A stretch of 64,000 bases of DNA from Catenulispora sp. MAP5-51 (GTDB lineage Bacteria > Actinomycetota > Actinomycetes > Streptomycetales > Catenulisporaceae): positions 62,001 through 126,000 of the forward strand of contig NZ_JBGCCH010000027.1 in assembly GCF_041261205.1 (NCBI RefSeq), given 5' to 3'. Positions within the stretch are counted from its first letter, which is position 1, and each line of letters begins with the position of its first letter. Below the pieces are notes generated by a model that was given only the letters and a program-made list of their open reading frames with translations, had not been told where the DNA came from and did no database searches. Below are positions 8,101 through 47,572 of the stretch, piece after piece. Made by a program: the position numbers and the translations under genes.

Positions 8101-9756
8101 GGCGTGCTCGAGTTCTTCTACGACGAGCTCGGGCGCGAGGTCGAGCGCACGTTCGGCGGCGGCGGCCTGGCCCAGCAGTACGACGTGGAGGGCCGGCTCA
8201 GCGAGCAGCGGCTGTGGCGGGGCGACACGGCGTCGGCATCGGTGTCGGCATCGGCGTCGGCATCGGCGTCGGCCGGCGCCTCGGTCGCGCCGGGCGCGGC
8301 GCAGCTGCTCCTGGAGCGCACGTACAGCTACCGCGCCGACGACACGCTGACCCGGGTCAGCGACTCCCGGCGCGGCACCCGCGACTACCAGCTGGACGCC
8401 CTGGGCCGCGTGCTCGCGGTCGAGGCGGCCACCTGGGGCGAGTCCTACGCGTACGACGCCTTCGGCAACATCGCGCGGGCGGCGGTGGACACCCCGGCGG
8501 GCGCGGCCCGCGGCGACGAGGACGACGTGAGCCGCGACCGCGACTTCGACGGCCCCCTGGTCCGGCGCGCCGGCCACACCCACTATGACTTCGACGCGCA
8601 GGGACGGATGATCCGGGCCCTGCGGCGGACGTTGTCCGGCGGGCGCAAGGAATGGGTCTACGACTGGGACGCCGACGACCGCCTGGTACGGGTCACGCTG
8701 CCGGACGAGACGGTATGGCAGTACTCGTACGACCCGTTCGGCCGCCGGATCGGCAAGGAACGCCTTGTCGCCGGCCGGGTCACCGACCGCGTCGAGTTCT
8801 CCTGGGACGGCGGGACGCTCATCGAGCAGTCCGTCTGGAACGACGCCGGCGGCGAGGCGCTGACGTGGGACTACGACGCGGGGGCGGCGGAGACCTGGCG
8901 CCCGGTCGCGCAGCGTCGGCGGAGCTGGAGCGGACACGCCGAGGCCCGGGCCGCCGAAGAGGCGTTCCACATGATCGTCACGGACGTGGCCGGGACCCCG
9001 ACCGAGCTGGTCGCCCCGGACGGATCCGTCGACTGGTACCTCACCACGAGCCTGTACGGCCTGCCCATCGCCTCGTCCGACCACGCGGTGGACTGCCCGC
9101 TGCGATTCCCCGGACAGTACCTGGACGACGAGACCGGGCTGCAGTACAACGTCCACCGCTACTACGACCCGCACACCGGCGGCTATCTGAGTGCCGACCC
9201 GCTGGGACTGGCGCCGGCGCCCAATGATCACGGGTACGTCCCCAACCCGCTGACCGACTTCGACCCGCTGGGCCTGCTGTGCCAGAACGCGCTGAACTCG
9301 ATCCAGGATCGCGTCGACACCCTGCACGCCAAGCAGGTCGGCGCCACCGGCCGGCGCAGCACCGCCATCATCCGCGCGCTCGACAAGCAGGGGAACCCGG
9401 TCGACGTCGTCGGCTGGAGCGGAGCGGGTCCGCTCGACAAGCGCGTGCTGAACGAACTGGGGAAGAACGGGCTCAACGAGGTCCCGGCCATCCGCATGGA
9501 CGCCGACGCCGAAATCAGCGCTCTTGCGACGATTCGGCAGAACGGCTGGACCCCTCTGGGCGGCGCGGCGAACCGTCCTGTGTGCCCCTGGTGCCAGGAC
9601 ACATTGTTCAAGCCGTTCAGTGCTAAGGTCGGGGCTGCCCAGCTGACGGGGCCTTTGCGGACCCAACGGATCAAGCTGTTCGACGGCAAGGGCGGGACCA
9701 TCGCGAAGGACGTCGCCGGCGTCAAGCTTGTCAGCGAAACACAGTTCACATGGTGA
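5143..9756 (+). CDS. Rhs-family polymorphic toxin with WXG-like N terminus and probable deaminase C terminus
   Basis: A 1,537-residue contact-dependent toxin. Residues 1-90 resemble WXG100-type secretion domains (RWIGQTADAFKGQYG), followed by an Ala/Gln-rich coiled coil (about 95-200) and a hydrophobic helical stretch (about 225-290). A DUF6531-type opening (GDPVDVVSGNM) begins near residue 318. YD/RHS repeats follow, and the Rhs core closes with GLQYNVHRYYDPHTGGYLS and DPLGL near residue 1380. The remaining roughly 150 residues vary in such toxins. Here they carry DAE (1455-1457) and CPWC (1481-1484), the arrangement of zinc-dependent nucleic-acid deaminases, with Asp where His or Cys is more usual. 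An Ala/Ser repeat interrupts the core at 8232-8276. Export by a type VII-like route is inference. Confidence 0.85.
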   Translation: MARPTGWDILGLDGDPTPGVVESVQALAKQFGDFAHDVEAAYHSLNSFGSDTAAMRWIGQTADAFKGQYGPLPGRLQKLYTSYSEASDALSAYAPKLQAAQTKADTALRQAQDAHADLQRATSTANNAATDLKTAQQNQAANPNQKAVTDAQTAHDTAQTNLNNAKAQMASLTKQANDAYNDRIEAAKACQSALGKAQGDGIHNKSWWDHVGEDLSEWGGKIADIANDLAPFLDVLALATSWIPGVDVVTAALAEADNIIALVGTGMQIAGDAMQGHWGDALMGAGMLGLQFAGGKLLDKVGGKLIEKIGARGNKFACEGGDPVDVVSGNMITAEADIDLQAVLPLVLRRAYSSGNPYGRLFGPGWSSTLDIRLSVNAAGIHFVGDDAQALDYPVPEAGAVVLPSEGARWPLEWDRDADEIRVTDPVSAFVWRFARVHHRDDDGEIRDLTSVTDRNGNRIGFLRNDDGTPFGVEHSGGYRLAVDTVAAQAGPRVTGLRLLSADGDVPVRTFGYDERGRLTAVVDDSGEPYTYGYDDDNRITVWTDRLGYSYGYEYDETGRVVRAIGDGGVLNAAFSYDDDNRANTLVNSLGQAVVYRYNEHGGLASITDPLGNALTTDYDRYGRLISGTDALGHSTHREYDEFGNTACIRRADGTEITGVFAGPAQPTEVRLPDGSVWRYTYDGRGRLATITDPIQAVTEYRYSDNGGVLEVVDPGGAVRRTTTDAAGLPVAVQDGDGPATVLERDAFGRVVRMTLPDGATTRTQWSVDGMSLWDTAPDGSRTTRSYDVQGQLVEHTDPLGGVTRFEYGPFGKITARTDASGARYEFAYDTELNLVAVTNPAGAVWSYTYDDAGRMVAERDFTGRLQQYTYDAIGQLAARVNGAGQTTRFLRGVTGDILERHTADGTFTYDYDPAGRLLGATGPTSSMTYQHDLAGRVVAETVNGRTVSFEYDAAGRQVRRVTPSGAVSEWGFDTARGTARLATTAGVLEFFYDELGREVERTFGGGGLAQQYDVEGRLSEQRLWRGDTASASVSASASASASAGASVAPGAAQLLLERTYSYRADDTLTRVSDSRRGTRDYQLDALGRVLAVEAATWGESYAYDAFGNIARAAVDTPAGAARGDEDDVSRDRDFDGPLVRRAGHTHYDFDAQGRMIRALRRTLSGGRKEWVYDWDADDRLVRVTLPDETVWQYSYDPFGRRIGKERLVAGRVTDRVEFSWDGGTLIEQSVWNDAGGEALTWDYDAGAAETWRPVAQRRRSWSGHAEARAAEEAFHMIVTDVAGTPTELVAPDGSVDWYLTTSLYGLPIASSDHAVDCPLRFPGQYLDDETGLQYNVHRYYDPHTGGYLSADPLGLAPAPNDHGYVPNPLTDFDPLGLLCQNALNSIQDRVDTLHAKQVGATGRRSTAIIRALDKQGNPVDVVGWSGAGPLDKRVLNELGKNGLNEVPAIRMDADAEISALATIRQNGWTPLGGAANRPVCPWCQDTLFKPFSAKVGAAQLTGPLRTQRIKLFDGKGGTIAKDVAGVKLVSETQFTW
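8232..8276 (+). repeat. Six-base repeat inside the Rhs gene
   Basis: Alternating TCGGCA, TCGGTG and TCGGCG units encode an Ala/Ser stretch in the Rhs core. The insertion is in frame and probably variable between strains. Confidence 0.8.
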
Positions 9757-39715: not shown

Positions 39716-39744
39716 TTAGGCATACCTAAGTAAGGTGTGCCTAG
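39716..39744 (+). promoter_or_regulatory. Double iron box (DtxR/IdeR/DmdR-type operator)
   Basis: TTAGGCATACCTAA (39716-39729) followed by TAAGGTGTGCCTAG (39731-39744) gives overlapping TTAGG/CCTAA dyads, the hallmark of iron-dependent DtxR-family repressor sites. It lies 26 bases before the iron-binding protein start and matches the function of the operon. Confidence 0.88.
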
Positions 39745-39770: not shown

Positions 39771-40847
39771 GTGCTCACGCATGCCGTACGGTCCGGTCGG
39801 AAGTCAGCGGTGGTCGCGGTCGGAGCGGCCCTGACCAGTGTGGTGCTGGCGGCGTGCGGCAGCGGGTCCTCGAAGCCGGTGGCGGCCGGCCGGTCAGCGG
39901 GCGGGTCGCTGGCCGGCCAGTCGATCACCCTCTACAGCGGTCAGCACGAGCAGACCGTGCAGGCGCTGGTGAAGGCCTTCGAGGCCAAGACCGGCGTGAA
40001 GGTGAACGTGCGCTCCGGGGACGAGGCCGAGCTCGCGAACCAGATCCTCACCGAGGGCAAGGCCTCCCCCGCCGACGCGTTCTTCGCCGAGAACCCTCCG
40101 GCGCTGACCACGCTGGAGGAGAAGGGCCTGCTGGCCAAGGTGGACGCGAGCACGCTGAGCGCGGTGCCGGCCGCGGACAGCTCGGCCGGCGGCGACTGGC
40201 TCGGGGTGTCGGCCCGCAGCGCCGTGTTCGCGTACAACACCTCGGCGGTGCAGACCTCGCAGCTGCCGACGTCGGTGCAGGACCTGGCGGGCGCGGCGTG
40301 GAAGGGGAAGCTCGGGATCGCGCCGAGCGAGACCGACTTCACCCCGATCGTCACGCGCATGATCAAGGCGGTCGGCGCCGACGCGACCAAGACCTGGCTA
40401 CAGGGGCTCAAGGCCAACGGCAAGGTCTACGACTCGAACGAGGACCTGATCTCCGCCATCAACAAGGGCGAGGTCGCCGGGGGCGTCGTCGACCACTACT
40501 ACTGGTACCGCATGCGCGACGAGGTCGGCGCGGGCGCCGTGCACAGCGCGCTGGCCTCCTTCGCCGCCGGGGACCCGGGGTCGATGGTGGACGTCTCCGG
40601 CATCGGGATCCTGTCCTCCAGCAAGCACCAGGCGGCGGCCCAGGCGCTGCTCGCCTACTTGGTTTCCCAGCCGGGTCAGCAGATCATCGCCACCTCGCAG
40701 AGCTATGAGTACCCGCTGCTGCCCGGCGTGACCGCCGCGAAGCTGGACAAGCCGCTGTCGGCCGCCGGACCGCTGGTGCCGGCCACCGATCTGGGCGACG
40801 GCAAGCAGGCACTGGATCTGCTGCAGAGCGTCGGCCTGCTTTCGTGA
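39771..40847 (+). CDS. Ferric iron ABC transporter substrate-binding lipoprotein
   Basis: A 358-residue FbpA/FutA-type binding protein. The lipobox TSVVLAAC sets the lipidated Cys near residue 27. ITLYSGQHEQTVQALVKAFE is the family opening, PADAFFAENPPAL follows, and VVDHYYWYRMRDE includes the tandem Tyr pair that binds ferric iron. GTG 39771 is chosen for its GGGAGG site and signal sequence; the frame begins earlier at 39735 inside the iron box. It overlaps the permease gene by four bases (GTGA). Expression is probably derepressed by iron limitation. Confidence 0.92.
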   Translation: MLTHAVRSGRKSAVVAVGAALTSVVLAACGSGSSKPVAAGRSAGGSLAGQSITLYSGQHEQTVQALVKAFEAKTGVKVNVRSGDEAELANQILTEGKASPADAFFAENPPALTTLEEKGLLAKVDASTLSAVPAADSSAGGDWLGVSARSAVFAYNTSAVQTSQLPTSVQDLAGAAWKGKLGIAPSETDFTPIVTRMIKAVGADATKTWLQGLKANGKVYDSNEDLISAINKGEVAGGVVDHYYWYRMRDEVGAGAVHSALASFAAGDPGSMVDVSGIGILSSSKHQAAAQALLAYLVSQPGQQIIATSQSYEYPLLPGVTAAKLDKPLSAAGPLVPATDLGDGKQALDLLQSVGLLS

Positions 40848-42472
40848 GCCAGCCCGCTGCTCCCGCCCGCGCCGCCCTGCCGCGTTCGGTCCTGAGGGCG
40901 ATGAGCCCGGCGGCGTTGCGCCGCCGGGCTTCCGGCGCTCCGTTGGTGCTGTCGCTGGTGGCCGCGGCGGTCGCGGTCGTCGTGTGCTGCCCGCTGGTGT
41001 TCGTGGTGATGCAGGCCGGCCAGTCCGGATGGGACTCCGTCCGCCGGCTGCTCGGCCGCCCGCTGGTCACCACGCTGTTGTGGCACACGCTGGAGCTCAC
41101 CGTCACCGTCACGGCGGCGACGCTGCTCATCGGCTTCTGCGCCGCCTTCCTGACGCAGCGCACTGACATCCCGGGGCGCCGGGTGTTCACGGTGCTGCTG
41201 GCGATGCCTTTGGCGGTCCCGGAGTTCGTGCACGGGTACTGCTGGGTCTCGTTGTTCCCGTCGGTCCAGGGCTTCCGGGGCGCGGTGCTGGTGATGACCA
41301 CCTCGCTGTACCCGCTGGTGTTCCTGCCGGTGGCCGCGACCCTGCGGCGCAGCGACGCCGCCACCGAGGAGGTGGCGCGCAGCCTCGGCCACAGCCGGTG
41401 GCGCGTCCTGTGGCGGGTGACGCTGCCGCAGACCCGGCCGGCGCTGGCCGGCGGCGCGCTGCTGGTGTCGCTGTACCTGCTCGGCGAGTACGGGGCGTTC
41501 GCGATGGTGCGCTACACCACCTTCGCCACCGCGATCTACACGCAGTTCGAGACGAGCTTCGACACCGTCTCGGCGTCCGTGCTGGCGCTGGTGCTGATCG
41601 TGCTGGCCGTACTGGTGACCGGGGCCGAGGCCGGAGCCGGACGCCGGCGGGGCCGGGGGGTCAGGGTGGTCCGGGAAGGCGCGGCGGCGCGGCCCGCCGA
41701 TCCGCTGGCGCTGGGCCGGGGCCGGATTCCGGCCCTCCTGGGACTGGCCGCGGTGGTCGGCACCACGCTCGGCGTCCCGGTATACGCACTCGGATACTGG
41801 CTGGCCAAGGGCAACTCCAGCACGCTGCCCTCGGCCTCGATCTGGACGGCGACCGCCACCACCGCCGGGTACGCGCTGGTCACCGCCGCGGTGGCGACGG
41901 CGGCCGCGGTCCCGGTCGCGCTGCTGGCCTGGCGCCACCCGGGGCACGCGTCCGAGGGGATCGTGCGCCTGGCCTACCTGACGCGGGCCCTGCCGGGCAT
42001 CGCGGTCGCGCTGGCCGTGGTGTTCTTCGCGATCCGCTACGCCCAGCCCTGGTATCAGCAGCCTCCGATGCTCGTCGCCGGCTACGTGGTGTTGTTCTTC
42101 CCCCTCGCCCTGACGGCCGTGCGCGCCTCGCTGGCCCACGTCCCGCACGGGGTCGAGGACGTGGCGCGCTCGCTCGGCCGGCGCCGCCTGGCCGTGCTGG
42201 GCCGGGTCACGCTGCCGCTGATCGCGCCGGGGCTGGCCGCCTCGTTCGCGATGGTGGCGCTGACCGCCAGCACCGAGCTGACCGCGACGCTGCTGTTGCA
42301 TCCCACCGGGACCGAGACCCTGGCGACCCGGTTCTGGTCGTACACCACCGGACTGGCCTACGGCGCCGCCGCTCCCTACGCGGCGATGATGACCGTCCTG
42401 TCGGTCCCGGCCGTGATCCTGCTGACCCGCCGCACGCTCGGACCCGCCCGCAGCTTGAAGGAAGAAGCCTGA
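40844..42472 (+). CDS. Ferric iron ABC transporter permease, fused two-domain type
   Basis: A 542-residue FbpB-like permease made of two fused halves with about twelve membrane segments. Each half carries an EAA loop for the ATPase: EEVARSLGHSRWRVLWRVTL in the first and EDVARSLGRRRLAVLGRVTL in the second. The middle contains a basic cytoplasmic loop (GRRRGRGVRVVR). It starts at GTG 40844, overlapping the binding-protein stop, and ends one base before the ATG of the ATPase gene. Confidence 0.93.
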   Translation: MSQPAAPARAALPRSVLRAMSPAALRRRASGAPLVLSLVAAAVAVVVCCPLVFVVMQAGQSGWDSVRRLLGRPLVTTLLWHTLELTVTVTAATLLIGFCAAFLTQRTDIPGRRVFTVLLAMPLAVPEFVHGYCWVSLFPSVQGFRGAVLVMTTSLYPLVFLPVAATLRRSDAATEEVARSLGHSRWRVLWRVTLPQTRPALAGGALLVSLYLLGEYGAFAMVRYTTFATAIYTQFETSFDTVSASVLALVLIVLAVLVTGAEAGAGRRRGRGVRVVREGAAARPADPLALGRGRIPALLGLAAVVGTTLGVPVYALGYWLAKGNSSTLPSASIWTATATTAGYALVTAAVATAAAVPVALLAWRHPGHASEGIVRLAYLTRALPGIAVALAVVFFAIRYAQPWYQQPPMLVAGYVVLFFPLALTAVRASLAHVPHGVEDVARSLGRRRLAVLGRVTLPLIAPGLAASFAMVALTASTELTATLLLHPTGTETLATRFWSYTTGLAYGAAAPYAAMMTVLSVPAVILLTRRTLGPARSLKEEA

Positions 42473-42473
42473 C

Positions 42474-43637
42474 ATGAGCGGACTCACGATCACCGGACTG
42501 CGGGCCGGCCACGGCGCCTCCGCGGTCCTGGACGGCCTGGATCTGACGATCGAGGACGGGACGCTGGCTTGCATCCTCGGCCCCTCCGGATGCGGCAAGA
42601 GCACACTGCTGCGGGTCATCGCCGGATTCCACCGGTCGAGCGCGGGAACGGTCGCGGTCGGCGGACGCGTGCTGAACGACGAGCGCACGCAGGTCGCGGC
42701 CGAACGCCGGCGGATCGGCTACGTCCCGCAGGACGGCGCGCTGTTCCCGCACCTCTCGGCCGCCGCGAACATCGGCTTCGGCCTGCCGCGTGCCGGACGC
42801 GGTGAGCGCGTGGAGGAGCTGCTGGACCTGGTCGGGCTGTCAGGGCTCGGCGACCGGCATCCGCATCAGCTCTCCGGCGGCCAACAGCAGCGCGTCGCAT
42901 TGGCGCGGGCACTCGCCCCGCGCCCGGAACTGCTGTTGTTGGACGAGCCGTTCGCCGCGTTGGACGCCGCACTGCGCACCGAGGTACGGGCCCAGGTCGC
43001 GGCGGCACTGAGGGCGGCGAACGCCACCGCGATCCTCGTGACGCACGACGTCGACGAGGCGTTGTCGTTCGCCGACCTCATCGCGGTGCTGCGCGGCGGG
43101 CGGATCGTGCAGGCCGACAGCGGCCACGCGCTGTACCACCGGCCTGCCGATGCCGACATAGCGCGGACGCTCGGCGAGGCCAACCTGCTCCCCGCGGTCG
43201 TGCGCGGCGGTCTGGCCGAGACGGCGCTGGGTACCGTGGCGCTGCCCGACGGGGCCGAGGTCCCCGACGGATTGGCGACCGTCATGCTGCGCCCCGGCCA
43301 GGTGCGGATCGCGGCCCCCGGGCCGGACACAGACACTGGCGCCGACACCAACACTGGCACCGGCACCGGCACCGGCACCGACGCCTTCCCGGCGCGGATC
43401 CTCGATTCCCGGTTCCGGGGCACCGACTGGCGGATCGAGCTCACCCTCGAGGACAGCCACATCGCCGGGCCGCCGCTGATCGCCTACGTCACGCAGGAAC
43501 CGCCGGCGGCCGGGCAGCAGGTCCACCTCGGCGTCGACGGCTGCGCCTTTCCGCTCGGCACCCCGGCCGATCCCGGGCACGCCGCCGGCGCGGACGAGCA
43601 GCCTTCGAAGGCGGCCGCCGGCACCGTCGTGTCCTGA
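42474..43637 (+). CDS. Ferric iron ABC transporter ATP-binding protein
   Basis: A 387-residue FbpC-like ATPase. Walker A is GPSGCGKST (near residue 38), the signature is LSGGQQQRVALARAL, Walker B is LLLLDEPFAALD, and the switch His is in VTHDVDEAL. The C-terminal regulatory TOBE region (about 240-370) is interrupted by a short repeat of Asp/Gly/Thr residues encoded at 43324-43382. It energises the upstream permease. One base separates its stop from the next gene. Confidence 0.93.
   Translation: MSGLTITGLRAGHGASAVLDGLDLTIEDGTLACILGPSGCGKSTLLRVIAGFHRSSAGTVAVGGRVLNDERTQVAAERRRIGYVPQDGALFPHLSAAANIGFGLPRAGRGERVEELLDLVGLSGLGDRHPHQLSGGQQQRVALARALAPRPELLLLDEPFAALDAALRTEVRAQVAAALRAANATAILVTHDVDEALSFADLIAVLRGGRIVQADSGHALYHRPADADIARTLGEANLLPAVVRGGLAETALGTVALPDGAEVPDGLATVMLRPGQVRIAAPGPDTDTGADTNTGTGTGTGTDAFPARILDSRFRGTDWRIELTLEDSHIAGPPLIAYVTQEPPAAGQQVHLGVDGCAFPLGTPADPGHAAGADEQPSKAAAGTVVS
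43324..43382 (+). repeat. Six-base GACACN/GGCACC repeat inside the iron ATPase gene
   Basis: Repeated GACACN and GGCACC units encode a Thr-, Gly- and Asp-rich stretch in the regulatory domain of the ATPase. It is in frame and probably a length-variable linker. Confidence 0.75.
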
Positions 43638-43638
43638 T

Positions 43639-45000
43639 ATGCCCGAGCTGCTGGATCAGGCGGGACGCGGCGCGCTCTACTGCTGTGTTCCGCACCGCGC
43701 CGACGCCGACCAATCGCCGGTCGATGCCCAGGAGCGGCAAGGCCGCGCGCTGGCCGCGAAGCTCCGGATCAGCGTGCGCCCCGAGTCGGTGTTCGCCGAC
43801 CGGCAGCGGTCGGTGTGGCAGCCGGAGGCCGGCCGACCCGGCTGGACTCGGCTCTTGCAGGCGGTCCGCGCCGACCGGGTGGACACGGTTCTGGTGTTCC
43901 GGCCCTCGATGCTGATCCGTCACCGCCCGGCCGACGCGATGGAGCTGCTGGCCCTGGCCGAGGAGAATCTGGTGGTGCTCCACGGTTTCGGCGACGGTGT
44001 GGACCTCCGGGACACGAGAGCGCGCAAGGCCGCCCTGGCTCAAGCCCGGCAGCTGAGCCGCACCTCCGCTGCTTTGTCGGATTCGGTTCGGGCGGCTCAT
44101 CGCCTGGCCGCGGAGTCCGGGCATCCGCACGGCGGCGGACGCCGCGCGTACGGCTACGAGGTCGGTATGCGGGCCCTGATTCCGAGCGAAGCCCGGGTGG
44201 TGCATGAGATCTACTCCCGGTATCTGGACGGCGAGAGTCTGCGCGCCATCGCGTGGGATCTGAACGCGCGCGCCGTCCCGACGTCCACCGGCAGCACGTG
44301 GACCACCACCGGCATCGACCGGATCCTGGCGGCCCCTCGGTACGCCGGCCTGCGGGTCTTCCGCGGCAGTGTGAACCGCGAGGAGGGCGGGCTTCGCCCG
44401 GGGACGTGGGCACCGTGCGTCGGTGTCGAGGTCTGGCGGACGGTGCAGGAGGAGCGTGCGGCGCGGGCCGCGGCGTATGCCGGGCACCGGAAACGTGCGC
44501 GTTATCTGCTGACCGGCCTGGTCGTGTGCGGGCAGTGCCGCGTCCACATGGTCGGCTCGATCGTCGGCGACTACCGCATGTACGCCTGCGCTTCCTTGAA
44601 CAGCCCGCTGCCCAGGAAGTGCAACCAGCACATAGCCGCCGGTTCTTTGGAACGTTTCGTCAGCGAGGCGGCCGTGGCGCTGCTGACCGCTCGGGACGGC
44701 TCGATCAACCACGACGGCCCGGTGAGCGTGCGCCGCGGACTGGCGGAGCCGGCACCCGGCCGGCCCGACGGACTCCGCCACGAATTCCGGCACGAACACG
44801 GCCAGGTGGATCTGCGCGATCTCGGCGCGCTGGACGGTGTGGCCACCGGGGCGGAAGCGGCGGGCGATTGGGAGCGGCTGCCCGACACCCGCAAGGCCGC
44901 GGTGCTGCGGGCGTTGTTCGCCGCGATCGTGATCGGGCCGAAGACGACCGTTCGCAGTGTTTTCGACATCAGCCGGATCACTCTGGTGCGCGACAGCTGA
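43639..45000 (+). CDS. Large serine recombinase homologue lacking catalytic residues
   Basis: A 453-residue protein with resolvase N-terminal (about 10-150), recombinase (about 155-260; YGYEVGMRALIPSEARVVHE, TTGIDRILAAPRYAGLRVF) and zinc-ribbon (about 290-330; CGQC and CASLNSPLPRKCNQ) domains. The catalytic block, normally YxRVS, reads YCCVP, so both the Arg and the nucleophilic Ser are lost. The later DRLSR motif reads SMLIR, which loses another Arg. It should not cut DNA but may still bind it. It begins one base after the iron ATPase stop, so it is probably translated from the iron-regulated message. Confidence 0.85.
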   Translation: MPELLDQAGRGALYCCVPHRADADQSPVDAQERQGRALAAKLRISVRPESVFADRQRSVWQPEAGRPGWTRLLQAVRADRVDTVLVFRPSMLIRHRPADAMELLALAEENLVVLHGFGDGVDLRDTRARKAALAQARQLSRTSAALSDSVRAAHRLAAESGHPHGGGRRAYGYEVGMRALIPSEARVVHEIYSRYLDGESLRAIAWDLNARAVPTSTGSTWTTTGIDRILAAPRYAGLRVFRGSVNREEGGLRPGTWAPCVGVEVWRTVQEERAARAAAYAGHRKRARYLLTGLVVCGQCRVHMVGSIVGDYRMYACASLNSPLPRKCNQHIAAGSLERFVSEAAVALLTARDGSINHDGPVSVRRGLAEPAPGRPDGLRHEFRHEHGQVDLRDLGALDGVATGAEAAGDWERLPDTRKAAVLRALFAAIVIGPKTTVRSVFDISRITLVRDS

Positions 45001-45167
45001 CAACTATGGTCCGTAGCACTCAGCTGCCGGAGGATGACGGACTCCCGCCAGCGATCAAGGGTTACTTCGTAACCTGACTGAAAAACGCAGGCCAAAAGAC
45101 GTTACCGGTGCGTACGCCTTCTACGGTATCCAATGGACCCTCATCCATACTCTTACATAAGAAAACG

Positions 45168-45475: not shown

Positions 45476-47572
45476 GTGAGAAACACTTCACGCCTGCGCG
45501 CGACCGCGCGCCTGGCAACAGCCGTTGCCCTGGGCAGCGCGCTGACCGTCGCCGTCGCTTCGGGGGCCACCGCCTCCCCGGCGCCGGCGGCGACCACTTC
45601 GGCATCCGTGAACCTGATCGCCGCAGAGGCCGCCGGTTCCGCCCACGCCGCGCAGCCCGCGGCGAGCGCGGAGAACCAGGGCTCGACCCACGCCTGTTCG
45701 GCCGTGATCGTGGCCGGGCACCAGTCCTGCTTCGCGCTGAAGCGGAACGGCATCCACTCCATGACCGCCGCGGTCTCGCCCAACGCGATCCCGTCCGGTG
45801 TCGGGTACGGCCCCTCTCAGCTGCAGTCGGCGTACAACCTGACCTCCGCCGCCGCCGCCAACGGCGCCGGCCGCACCATCGCCATCGTCGACGCCTACGA
45901 CGACGCGAACGCCGCCTCCGACCTGGCCGCCTACCGCACCGCGGCGGGCCTGCCGGCGGCGAACTTCAAGAAGGTCAACCAGAACGGCGCGACCTCCCCG
46001 CTGCCCTCCGCGCCGCCCTCGGGCGACGACTGGACGCTGGAGGAGTCGCTGGACCTGGACATGGCCTCCGCGATCTGCCCGCTGTGCAGCATCGTGCTGG
46101 TCGAGGCGCAGGACGACCAGAGCACCGGCCTCTACACCGCGCAGGCCGCCGCCGCCAACGTCGCCACGTACATATCCAACTCCTGGGGCGGCTCGGAGTC
46201 CTCGACCGACCCGTCGTCGGACAACACCTACTTCAAGCACGCGACCGGCACCGTGACCACGGTGTCCGCCGGTGACTCCGACTACGGCGCGTCCTACCCG
46301 GCGACCTCGCCGAACGTGGTCTCGGTCGGCGGCACGAACCTGGCCACCGCCTCCAACAGCCGCGGCTGGACCGAGTCGGTCTGGAACACCACCACCGGCT
46401 CCGAGGGCACCGGCTCGGGCTGCTCGGCCTACGAGGCACAGCCCGCGTGGCAGACCTCGCTGAACCTGCCGTCGGGCTGCTCCAAGCGCGTCGACAACGA
46501 CGTCGCCGCGGACGCCGACCCGGCCACCGGTGTCGCCGTCTACGACACGTCCAACGGCAACACCGGCTGGAACGAGGTCGGCGGCACGTCGGCGTCCTCC
46601 CCGATGGTCGCCGCGATGTACGCCCTGGCCGGCAACGCCGGCGCCACCCCGGCGCAGGACATCTACCAGCACACCAGCAACTTCTACGACGTCACCTCGG
46701 GCAACGACGGCTCCTGCAGCCCGTCCTACCTGTGCACCGCGGGCACCGGCTACGACGGCCCCACCGGCATCGGCACCCCGAACGGCATCGCCGGCCTGCA
46801 GACCGGCGGCAGCGGCGGCACCGAGACCGTCTCGGTGACCAACCCGGGCAACCAGTCCTCGACCGCCGGCACCGCGATCAGCACCCTGCAGATCTCGGGT
46901 TCGGACTCGGCGAGCAAGGCGCTGACCTACTCGGCCACCGGCCTGCCGGCCGGCCTGTCGATCAGCAGCTCCGGCGCCATCACCGGCACCCCCACCACGG
47001 CCAGCACCTCCTCCGTGACCGTGACCGCCTCCTCCGGCACCGCCTCGGGCTCGACGTCCTTCACCTGGACGGTCAGCTCCACCGGCGGCGGCTGCTCCGC
47101 GACCCAGCTGCTGGGCAACGCCGGCTTCGAGACCGGTAGCGCCGCCCCGTGGTCGGCCTCCACCGGTGTCATCAACAGCGACACCAGCAGCGAGCCGGCC
47201 CACTCCGGCAGCTACGACGCCTGGATGGACGGCTACGGCACCACCCACACCGACACCCTCTCGCAGGCGGTGAGCATCCCCGCCACCTGCAAGACGGCGA
47301 CCTTCTCCTTCTGGCTGCACATCGACACCGCCGAGACCTCGACCAGCACCGCGTACGACACGCTCAAGGTGCAGGTCCTGAACTCCTCCGGCACCGTCCT
47401 GGGCACCCTGGCCACCTACTCCAACCTCAACCACAACACCGGGTACGCCCAGCACTCGTTCAGCCTGGCCAGCTACATCGGCCAGAACGTGACGCTGAAG
47501 TTCACCGGCGCCGAGGACTCCTCGCTGCAGACCTCGTTCGTCGTCGACGACAACGCGCTGAACGTCAACTGA
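45476..47572 (+). CDS. Secreted S53-family (sedolisin) peptidase with Ig-like and C-terminal accessory domains
   Basis: A 698-residue exported serine-carboxyl peptidase. A signal peptide (1-38, ending near ATAS) is followed by a short region and then the catalytic domain from about residue 105. The Glu/Asp pair lies in EESLDLDMA (about 189-195) and the Ser is in GTSASSP (about 372). A putative Ig domain (about 450-540; [20 protein letters not shown]) and a jelly-roll-like C-terminal domain (about 545-698; [21 protein letters not shown]) follow. The large Pro-kumamolisin prodomain is absent, as in some actinomycete members. GTG 45476 begins the signal peptide. Confidence 0.9.

Follow-up and report, generated by a model that had tools for sequence, protein, structure and literature searches.

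The gene that closes a ferric-iron uptake operon in Catenulispora sp. MAP5-51 belongs to a genus-wide family of large serine recombinases that lack the residues for cutting DNA, and on present sequence evidence the family looks like a mobile-element enzyme turned host gene regulator. We consider it somewhat more probable than otherwise that this dead integrase family acts as a palindrome-binding self-regulator, with one paralogue, here called line A, serving as an iron-responsive input. The broader statement, that pseudo-integrases have throughout the genus become self-regulating transcription factors with an operator of their own and one paralogue wired to iron, we hold at about even confidence. 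A private palindrome at the promoters of two other lines, B and C, together with a shift of conservation towards the DNA-binding domain, supports a self-regulating DNA-binding regulator, as far as sequence can indicate. The stretch analysed, referred to as the window, comprises 64,000 nucleotides, and its relevant features are listed in Table 1. The comparison covered nine family-bearing Catenulispora genomes (G000, G001, G002, G003, G004, G005, G006, G008 and G009); the same-genus genomes in the public collection are C. rubra, C. pinisilvae and C. pinistramenti.

Table 1. Features of the window around the line A gene (positions are those of the window).
Feature	Position	Strand	Basis or remark
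Tandem iron-box-like operator, TTAGGCATACCTAA (39716-39729) and TAAGGTGTGCCTAG (39731-39744), at the operon head	39716..39744	.	Cross-genome conservation
Ferric-iron-binding lipoprotein, FbpA/HitA type	39771..40847	+	Likely start GTG 39771
Fused two-domain ABC permease	40844..42472	+	Pfam; orthologues in relatives
ABC ATPase with TOBE domain	42474..43637	+	Pfam
Dead large serine recombinase, line A	43639..45000	+	453-aa ORF, Pfam, fold, alignment
N-terminal (ex-catalytic) domain, residues 10-120	43666..43998	+	C16 for R8, P18 for S10, S90-M91 for DR
Recombinase (DNA-binding) domain, residues 161-280	44119..44478	+	Most conserved part between paralogues
Zinc-ribbon domain, residues 281-350; coiled-coil insertion absent	44479..44688	+	C297, C300, C317, C328 invariant in lines A-C
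Degenerate counterpart of the operator-like site that follows line A	45000..45022	.	Weak in the window, not significant
Secreted sedolisin-type (S53) peptidase with Ig-like domain	45476..47572	+	Pfam, neighbourhood, subfamily

An integrase family without its active site

The 453-aa product carries the Resolvase, Recombinase and Zn_ribbon_recom domains, each above its Pfam cut-off, so that the recombinase and zinc-ribbon domains are indeed kept, as an earlier note on this DNA had stated. The order in which they occur is that of a large serine recombinase, in agreement with profile and fold matches: the family profile matches the solved integrases of SPbeta, Bxb1, A118 and TP901-1, and the best fold matches of an AlphaFold2 model are the Bxb1, phiC31 and A118 integrases (Z about 14-15; mean pLDDT 80, with a pTM of 0.43 that leaves the placement of the domains unsure). 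The residues that define the enzyme are, however, missing. Against Bxb1 (9iu2) and active relatives, R8 has become C16, the nucleophilic S10 has become P18, and the D-R of DRLxR reads S90-M91; the altered motifs YCCVP and SMLIR are residues 14-18 and 90-94. The loss of the nucleophile and two arginines proposed in the earlier note is thereby borne out, with the third arginine, R94, retained and invariant across lines A-C. All four zinc cysteines (C297, C300, C317 and C328) are present in the alignment and likewise invariant in these lines. The coiled-coil segment, which mediates synapsis in A118-type integrases (PMC3783163), is found in the active relatives F and H and is a gap in A, B, C and the divergent relative E. 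Judged from its residues, the window protein has the ancestry and fold of a large serine recombinase but not the activity that defines one, and is predicted to be unable to cut DNA.

The residue loss is conserved among the homologues that we collected, being common to 22 family members in nine Catenulispora genomes that form a single clade with 100% support. Whole-genome searches placed line A in five genomes (G000, G001, G002, G006 and G009), line B in seven, line C in nine, and E in G003 and G005. Every member of lines A, B and C lacks the serine, R8 and DR and retains the zinc cysteines. The tree unites A, B, C and E as (E,(C,(A,B))) with 100/100 support and leaves the active F and H outside, so that a single early loss of the nucleophile and DR is the simplest account; R8 would most simply have been lost after E split off. 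The tree thus dates the loss of the cutting residues, by sequence, to before the known Catenulispora species diverged. Neighbouring genes are conserved within each line and the branching is species-like, two observations that point away from a mobile-element integrase. When 84,980 species were scanned with the dead-family alignment, only Catenulispora yielded members of the dead family; the scan is pattern-based, so that remote cases may escape it. A catalytically intact F-type recombinase lies 4 bp behind an ECF-type sigma factor gene in three Catenulispora genomes (L056:7603-9706, L057:133-2194 and L058:7599-9546), a pairing that looks fixed.

Could the window gene simply be a decayed mobile-element integrase, a broken copy drifting at the end of an operon? 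Among 392 genomes of the order, relatives outside the Catenulisporaceae were found in about 20 streptomycete genomes, where they occur scattered and keep YCR(I/F)S and DRL in 20/20 sequences read, and in one Catenulispora genome, G008, the line A gene is cleanly gone. The earlier note had granted that mobile homologues with a catalytic serine elsewhere would make this only a decayed copy; the streptomycete homologues do keep the serine, but the window gene shows no decay. Its loss of catalytic residues goes back to an ancestor and is common to three lines, the reading frames are intact across the genus (the line C of G003 being present as contig-end pieces only), the zinc cysteines are invariant, a private promoter element is conserved, and NG86 estimates of dN/dS lie well below 1: 0.25-0.33 for line A, and 0.08-0.22 for lines B and C, rising to 0.31 with the distant G005 copy. 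These ratios indicate that the family is kept under purifying selection and is not decaying. As such, the decayed-copy reading is largely refuted on sequence grounds, and we regard it as highly improbable.

What has been kept points to DNA recognition. Between paralogues the recombinase domain is conserved at 0.56-0.69, against 0.40-0.57 for the ex-catalytic domain, and active relatives show the reverse, with 0.93 for the catalytic and 0.71 for the DNA-binding part between F sequences, and 0.66 and 0.44 between F and H. This is the pattern expected if selection had moved from chemistry to DNA recognition. As a point against our reading, line A itself evolves faster than the transporter that precedes it (73-79% compared with 91-94% for the permease).

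A palindrome exclusive to line B and C promoters

Alignment of the line B and line C promoters reveals a common palindrome, ATCTMCTA-N7-TAGTAG. Exact matches lie only just upstream of B and C genes, both in G000, G004, G006 and G008, which were searched with a pattern one base shorter, and in G001, G002, G003, G005 and G009, where a reversed control pattern gave no exact match; none of five outgroup genomes contains the palindrome. In 16/16 cases TAGTAG precedes the start codon by 9 bp (once by 10), a spacing that would fit the -10 element of a leaderless transcript, and G002 and G009 carry a 23-bp version with perfect 9-bp arms. Matches with one mismatch elsewhere stay within the chance rate of the reversed control. 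One of these, at L095:5392 (G000 C23), is flanked by a kinase-like gene and another ORF and may be due to chance.

At line B a BlaI-type gene diverges from the recombinase, with the palindrome in between. The palindrome could hence be bound by this BlaI-type protein, or by some other factor, with the recombinase doing other work, for example on nucleoid or DNA architecture. A BlaI paralogue with 78% identity is present genus-wide, which would fit such an arrangement. Yet line C carries the palindrome as well although BlaI is not among its neighbours, and so do G003 and G005, in which a search turned up no near-identical line B BlaI; the upstream region of the genus-wide paralogue was searched for the palindrome without a match. 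The recombinase is the sole gene common to all palindrome sites. Because the BlaI paralogue has no palindrome upstream and line C no BlaI neighbour, the recombinase is by position the likeliest binder, and we judge binding by another factor to be unlikely.

A different role for a dead integrase would be to interfere with live ones, either by occupying the attachment sites of incoming elements or by poisoning active integrases in a dominant-negative manner. Active F-type relatives do occur in the same genus, and the integrase fold appears to be kept in the model. However, identity to F in the DNA-binding domain is no more than 39-44%, the palindrome was not found at F or H loci, and the coiled-coil that brings integrases together has been lost. 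We therefore consider this role very unlikely, and return to a DNA-binding regulator as the preferred reading.

For line A the target is less clear. With up to three mismatches allowed, the palindrome was not found in the window, so that line A has no proven target there. An operator-like sequence related to the palindrome, TACTACGCNGCRTAG, lies just after the line A genes and before the sedolisin gene in G001, G002, G006 and G009; by score it is distinct only in G002 and G009, being weak in G000, G001 and G006. The sedolisin subfamily concerned adjoins recombinases of line A or B, or the G008 locus that lost line A, and G004 holds one further member with no recombinase alongside. A pairing at line C was considered and dropped, as the sedolisin beside the line C gene of G005 falls into a different sedolisin clade; the recombinase-sedolisin pair is thus supported for A and B only, and the duplication that separated these two lines probably carried the peptidase along. 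The line B locus at L038:5936-12374 contains the BlaI-type regulator, and in G006 and G009 sedolisin genes flank the line B recombinase on both sides.

Line A and the ferric operon

The solute-binding protein of the upstream operon matches HitA/FbpA structures (E 6e-71) and retains the YYWY stretch, and by this match the operon is truly ferric. Its longest ORF opens at 39735, within the iron box; a GTG at 39771, shortly behind AGGGAGG, is the better start. For the iron-box pattern TTAGGN4CCTAAG with at most one mismatch, the chance expectation is 0.05 per window. The box is kept before the same operon in G001, G002 and G006, and also in G009, and the operon of G003 and G005 carries a canonical TTAGGTAAGCCTTACCTGA. 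As in an iron-box regulon, this predicted operator stands upstream of the operon and is conserved between species. The permease has orthologues in G001, G002, G006 and G008, and counterparts at 67-69% in G003, G004 and G005. The earlier note had placed the recombinase behind a double iron box; the tandem box is real, but it heads the whole operon 3.9 kb upstream and not the recombinase gene itself. That the recombinase begins one base after the ATPase stop is exact, as the stop occupies 43635-43637 and is followed by a single T and the ATG.

This TGAyATG junction is found at 5/5 line A loci, and in four species (G000, G001, G002 and G006) line A stands behind the full operon with a shared promoter. 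The remaining genomes show that the two can part. In the single assembly of G009 about 3.7 kb of transporter genes has been lost by an in-frame deletion that runs from the 5' end of the binding-protein gene to the 3' end of the ATPase gene (L035, around 8516-8606). What remains is the iron box, a short in-frame leader ORF with a terminal TGA, and an intact recombinase. In G008, also a single assembly and close to the window genome (its transporter and sedolisin proteins are 87-96% identical), the line A gene is cleanly deleted with the transporter and sedolisin intact, and G004 has the transporter without line A. The linkage to the iron operon, which the earlier note had proposed to follow across homologues, is as such conserved, though broken in G004, G008 and G009.

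In G003 and G005, E lies about 144 bp after the same ATPase, and a C-terminal remnant of another family member lies upstream of the ferric operon (L054:4350-4517, and likewise in L055), so that in these genomes the operon is flanked on both sides by family sequence. A sister placement of A and E, as simple operon-linked orthologues would show, was rejected (p-AU 2e-4), subject to possible long-branch effects; the linkage therefore arose twice, or its history has been blurred by gene conversion or long branches.

Does the place of line A carry meaning? The gene could be functional and have landed behind an iron transporter without regulatory consequence, a view that can be combined with the DNA-binding part of our explanation. 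In its favour, G004 and G008 have the transporter without line A, and lines B and C are not linked to iron. On the other hand, the TGAyATG junction is retained in five species, in G009 the iron box, leader and junction have outlived the transporter, and the divergent E gene also adjoins this ferric operon. We find mere hitch-hiking rather doubtful. The absence of an iron link at lines B and C does mean that iron is the special input of one copy and not the function of the family, and the link of line A appears conserved but separable, not obligatory. Of the suggestion in the earlier note that the protein was domesticated as a DNA-binding regulator tied to iron, the first part is thus well supported, by the ancestral loss of catalysis, the loss of the coiled-coil, purifying selection, the shift in conservation and the B/C palindrome, all of them sequence-based; the tie to iron is real in gene order and shared promoter but not obligatory.

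We propose that an ancestor of Catenulispora captured a large serine integrase, which would have lost its cleavage chemistry and synapsis coiled-coil, been retained as a dimeric DNA-binding protein, and been duplicated into lines C, B and A. Its candidate target would be ATCTMCTA-N7-TAGTAG, overlapping the probable -10 region of line B and C genes, where binding would repress or tune its own family, and at line B also the divergently oriented BlaI-type gene and the sedolisin that goes with it. Line A shares the iron-box promoter of the ferric operon and is translated immediately after its ATPase; it would rise when iron is short and so might pass iron status on to this network. What we infer from sequence here is that the protein binds the palindrome, in which direction it regulates, and how line A is expressed when iron is limiting.

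Relation to known systems

If correct, this would directly document the conversion of an integrase into a regulator, in a conserved, catalytically dead family with an operator of its own. Survival of the recombinase domain and zinc ribbon, and disappearance of the active site and coiled-coil, would further indicate which parts of such an enzyme outlast catalysis and which do not. With three paralogues, a ready target site and natural gene losses the hypothesis is testable. A literature search covering mostly papers outside subscription journals found no inactive or domesticated serine recombinase acting as a regulator.

With the phage integrases Bxb1, phiC31, SPbeta and A118 the Catenulispora family shares domain order and fold. 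It differs from them in lacking the nucleophilic serine, R8, the DR motif and the coiled-coil, and in being apparently vertically inherited and not seen on an element. Tn3 and gamma-delta resolvases repress their own promoter by binding res, and the proposed arrangement is alike in that a serine recombinase would sit on a site overlapping its own promoter; those resolvases are, however, active enzymes of the small class, whereas the present family has lost catalysis and its proposed site is a short private palindrome. SpoIVCA, which acts on skin, is a domesticated active large serine recombinase of sporulation, and to our knowledge the known domesticated serine recombinases are active DNA-cutting switches. 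The skin recombinase of C. difficile is a further active, domesticated large serine recombinase of sporulation (PMC5025042). The sporulation recombinases resemble the present family as mobile-element integrases in host regulation and differ in acting by DNA cutting and excision, of which the Catenulispora protein is predicted to be incapable. Finally, DmdR1 has iron boxes in actinobacteria (PMC12161575), and the window operon resembles a DmdR1/IdeR/DtxR regulon in being a ferric transporter operon headed by an iron-box-like palindrome; it is unlike such regulons in that its last cistron is a recombinase-derived gene and its iron regulation is predicted from sequence.
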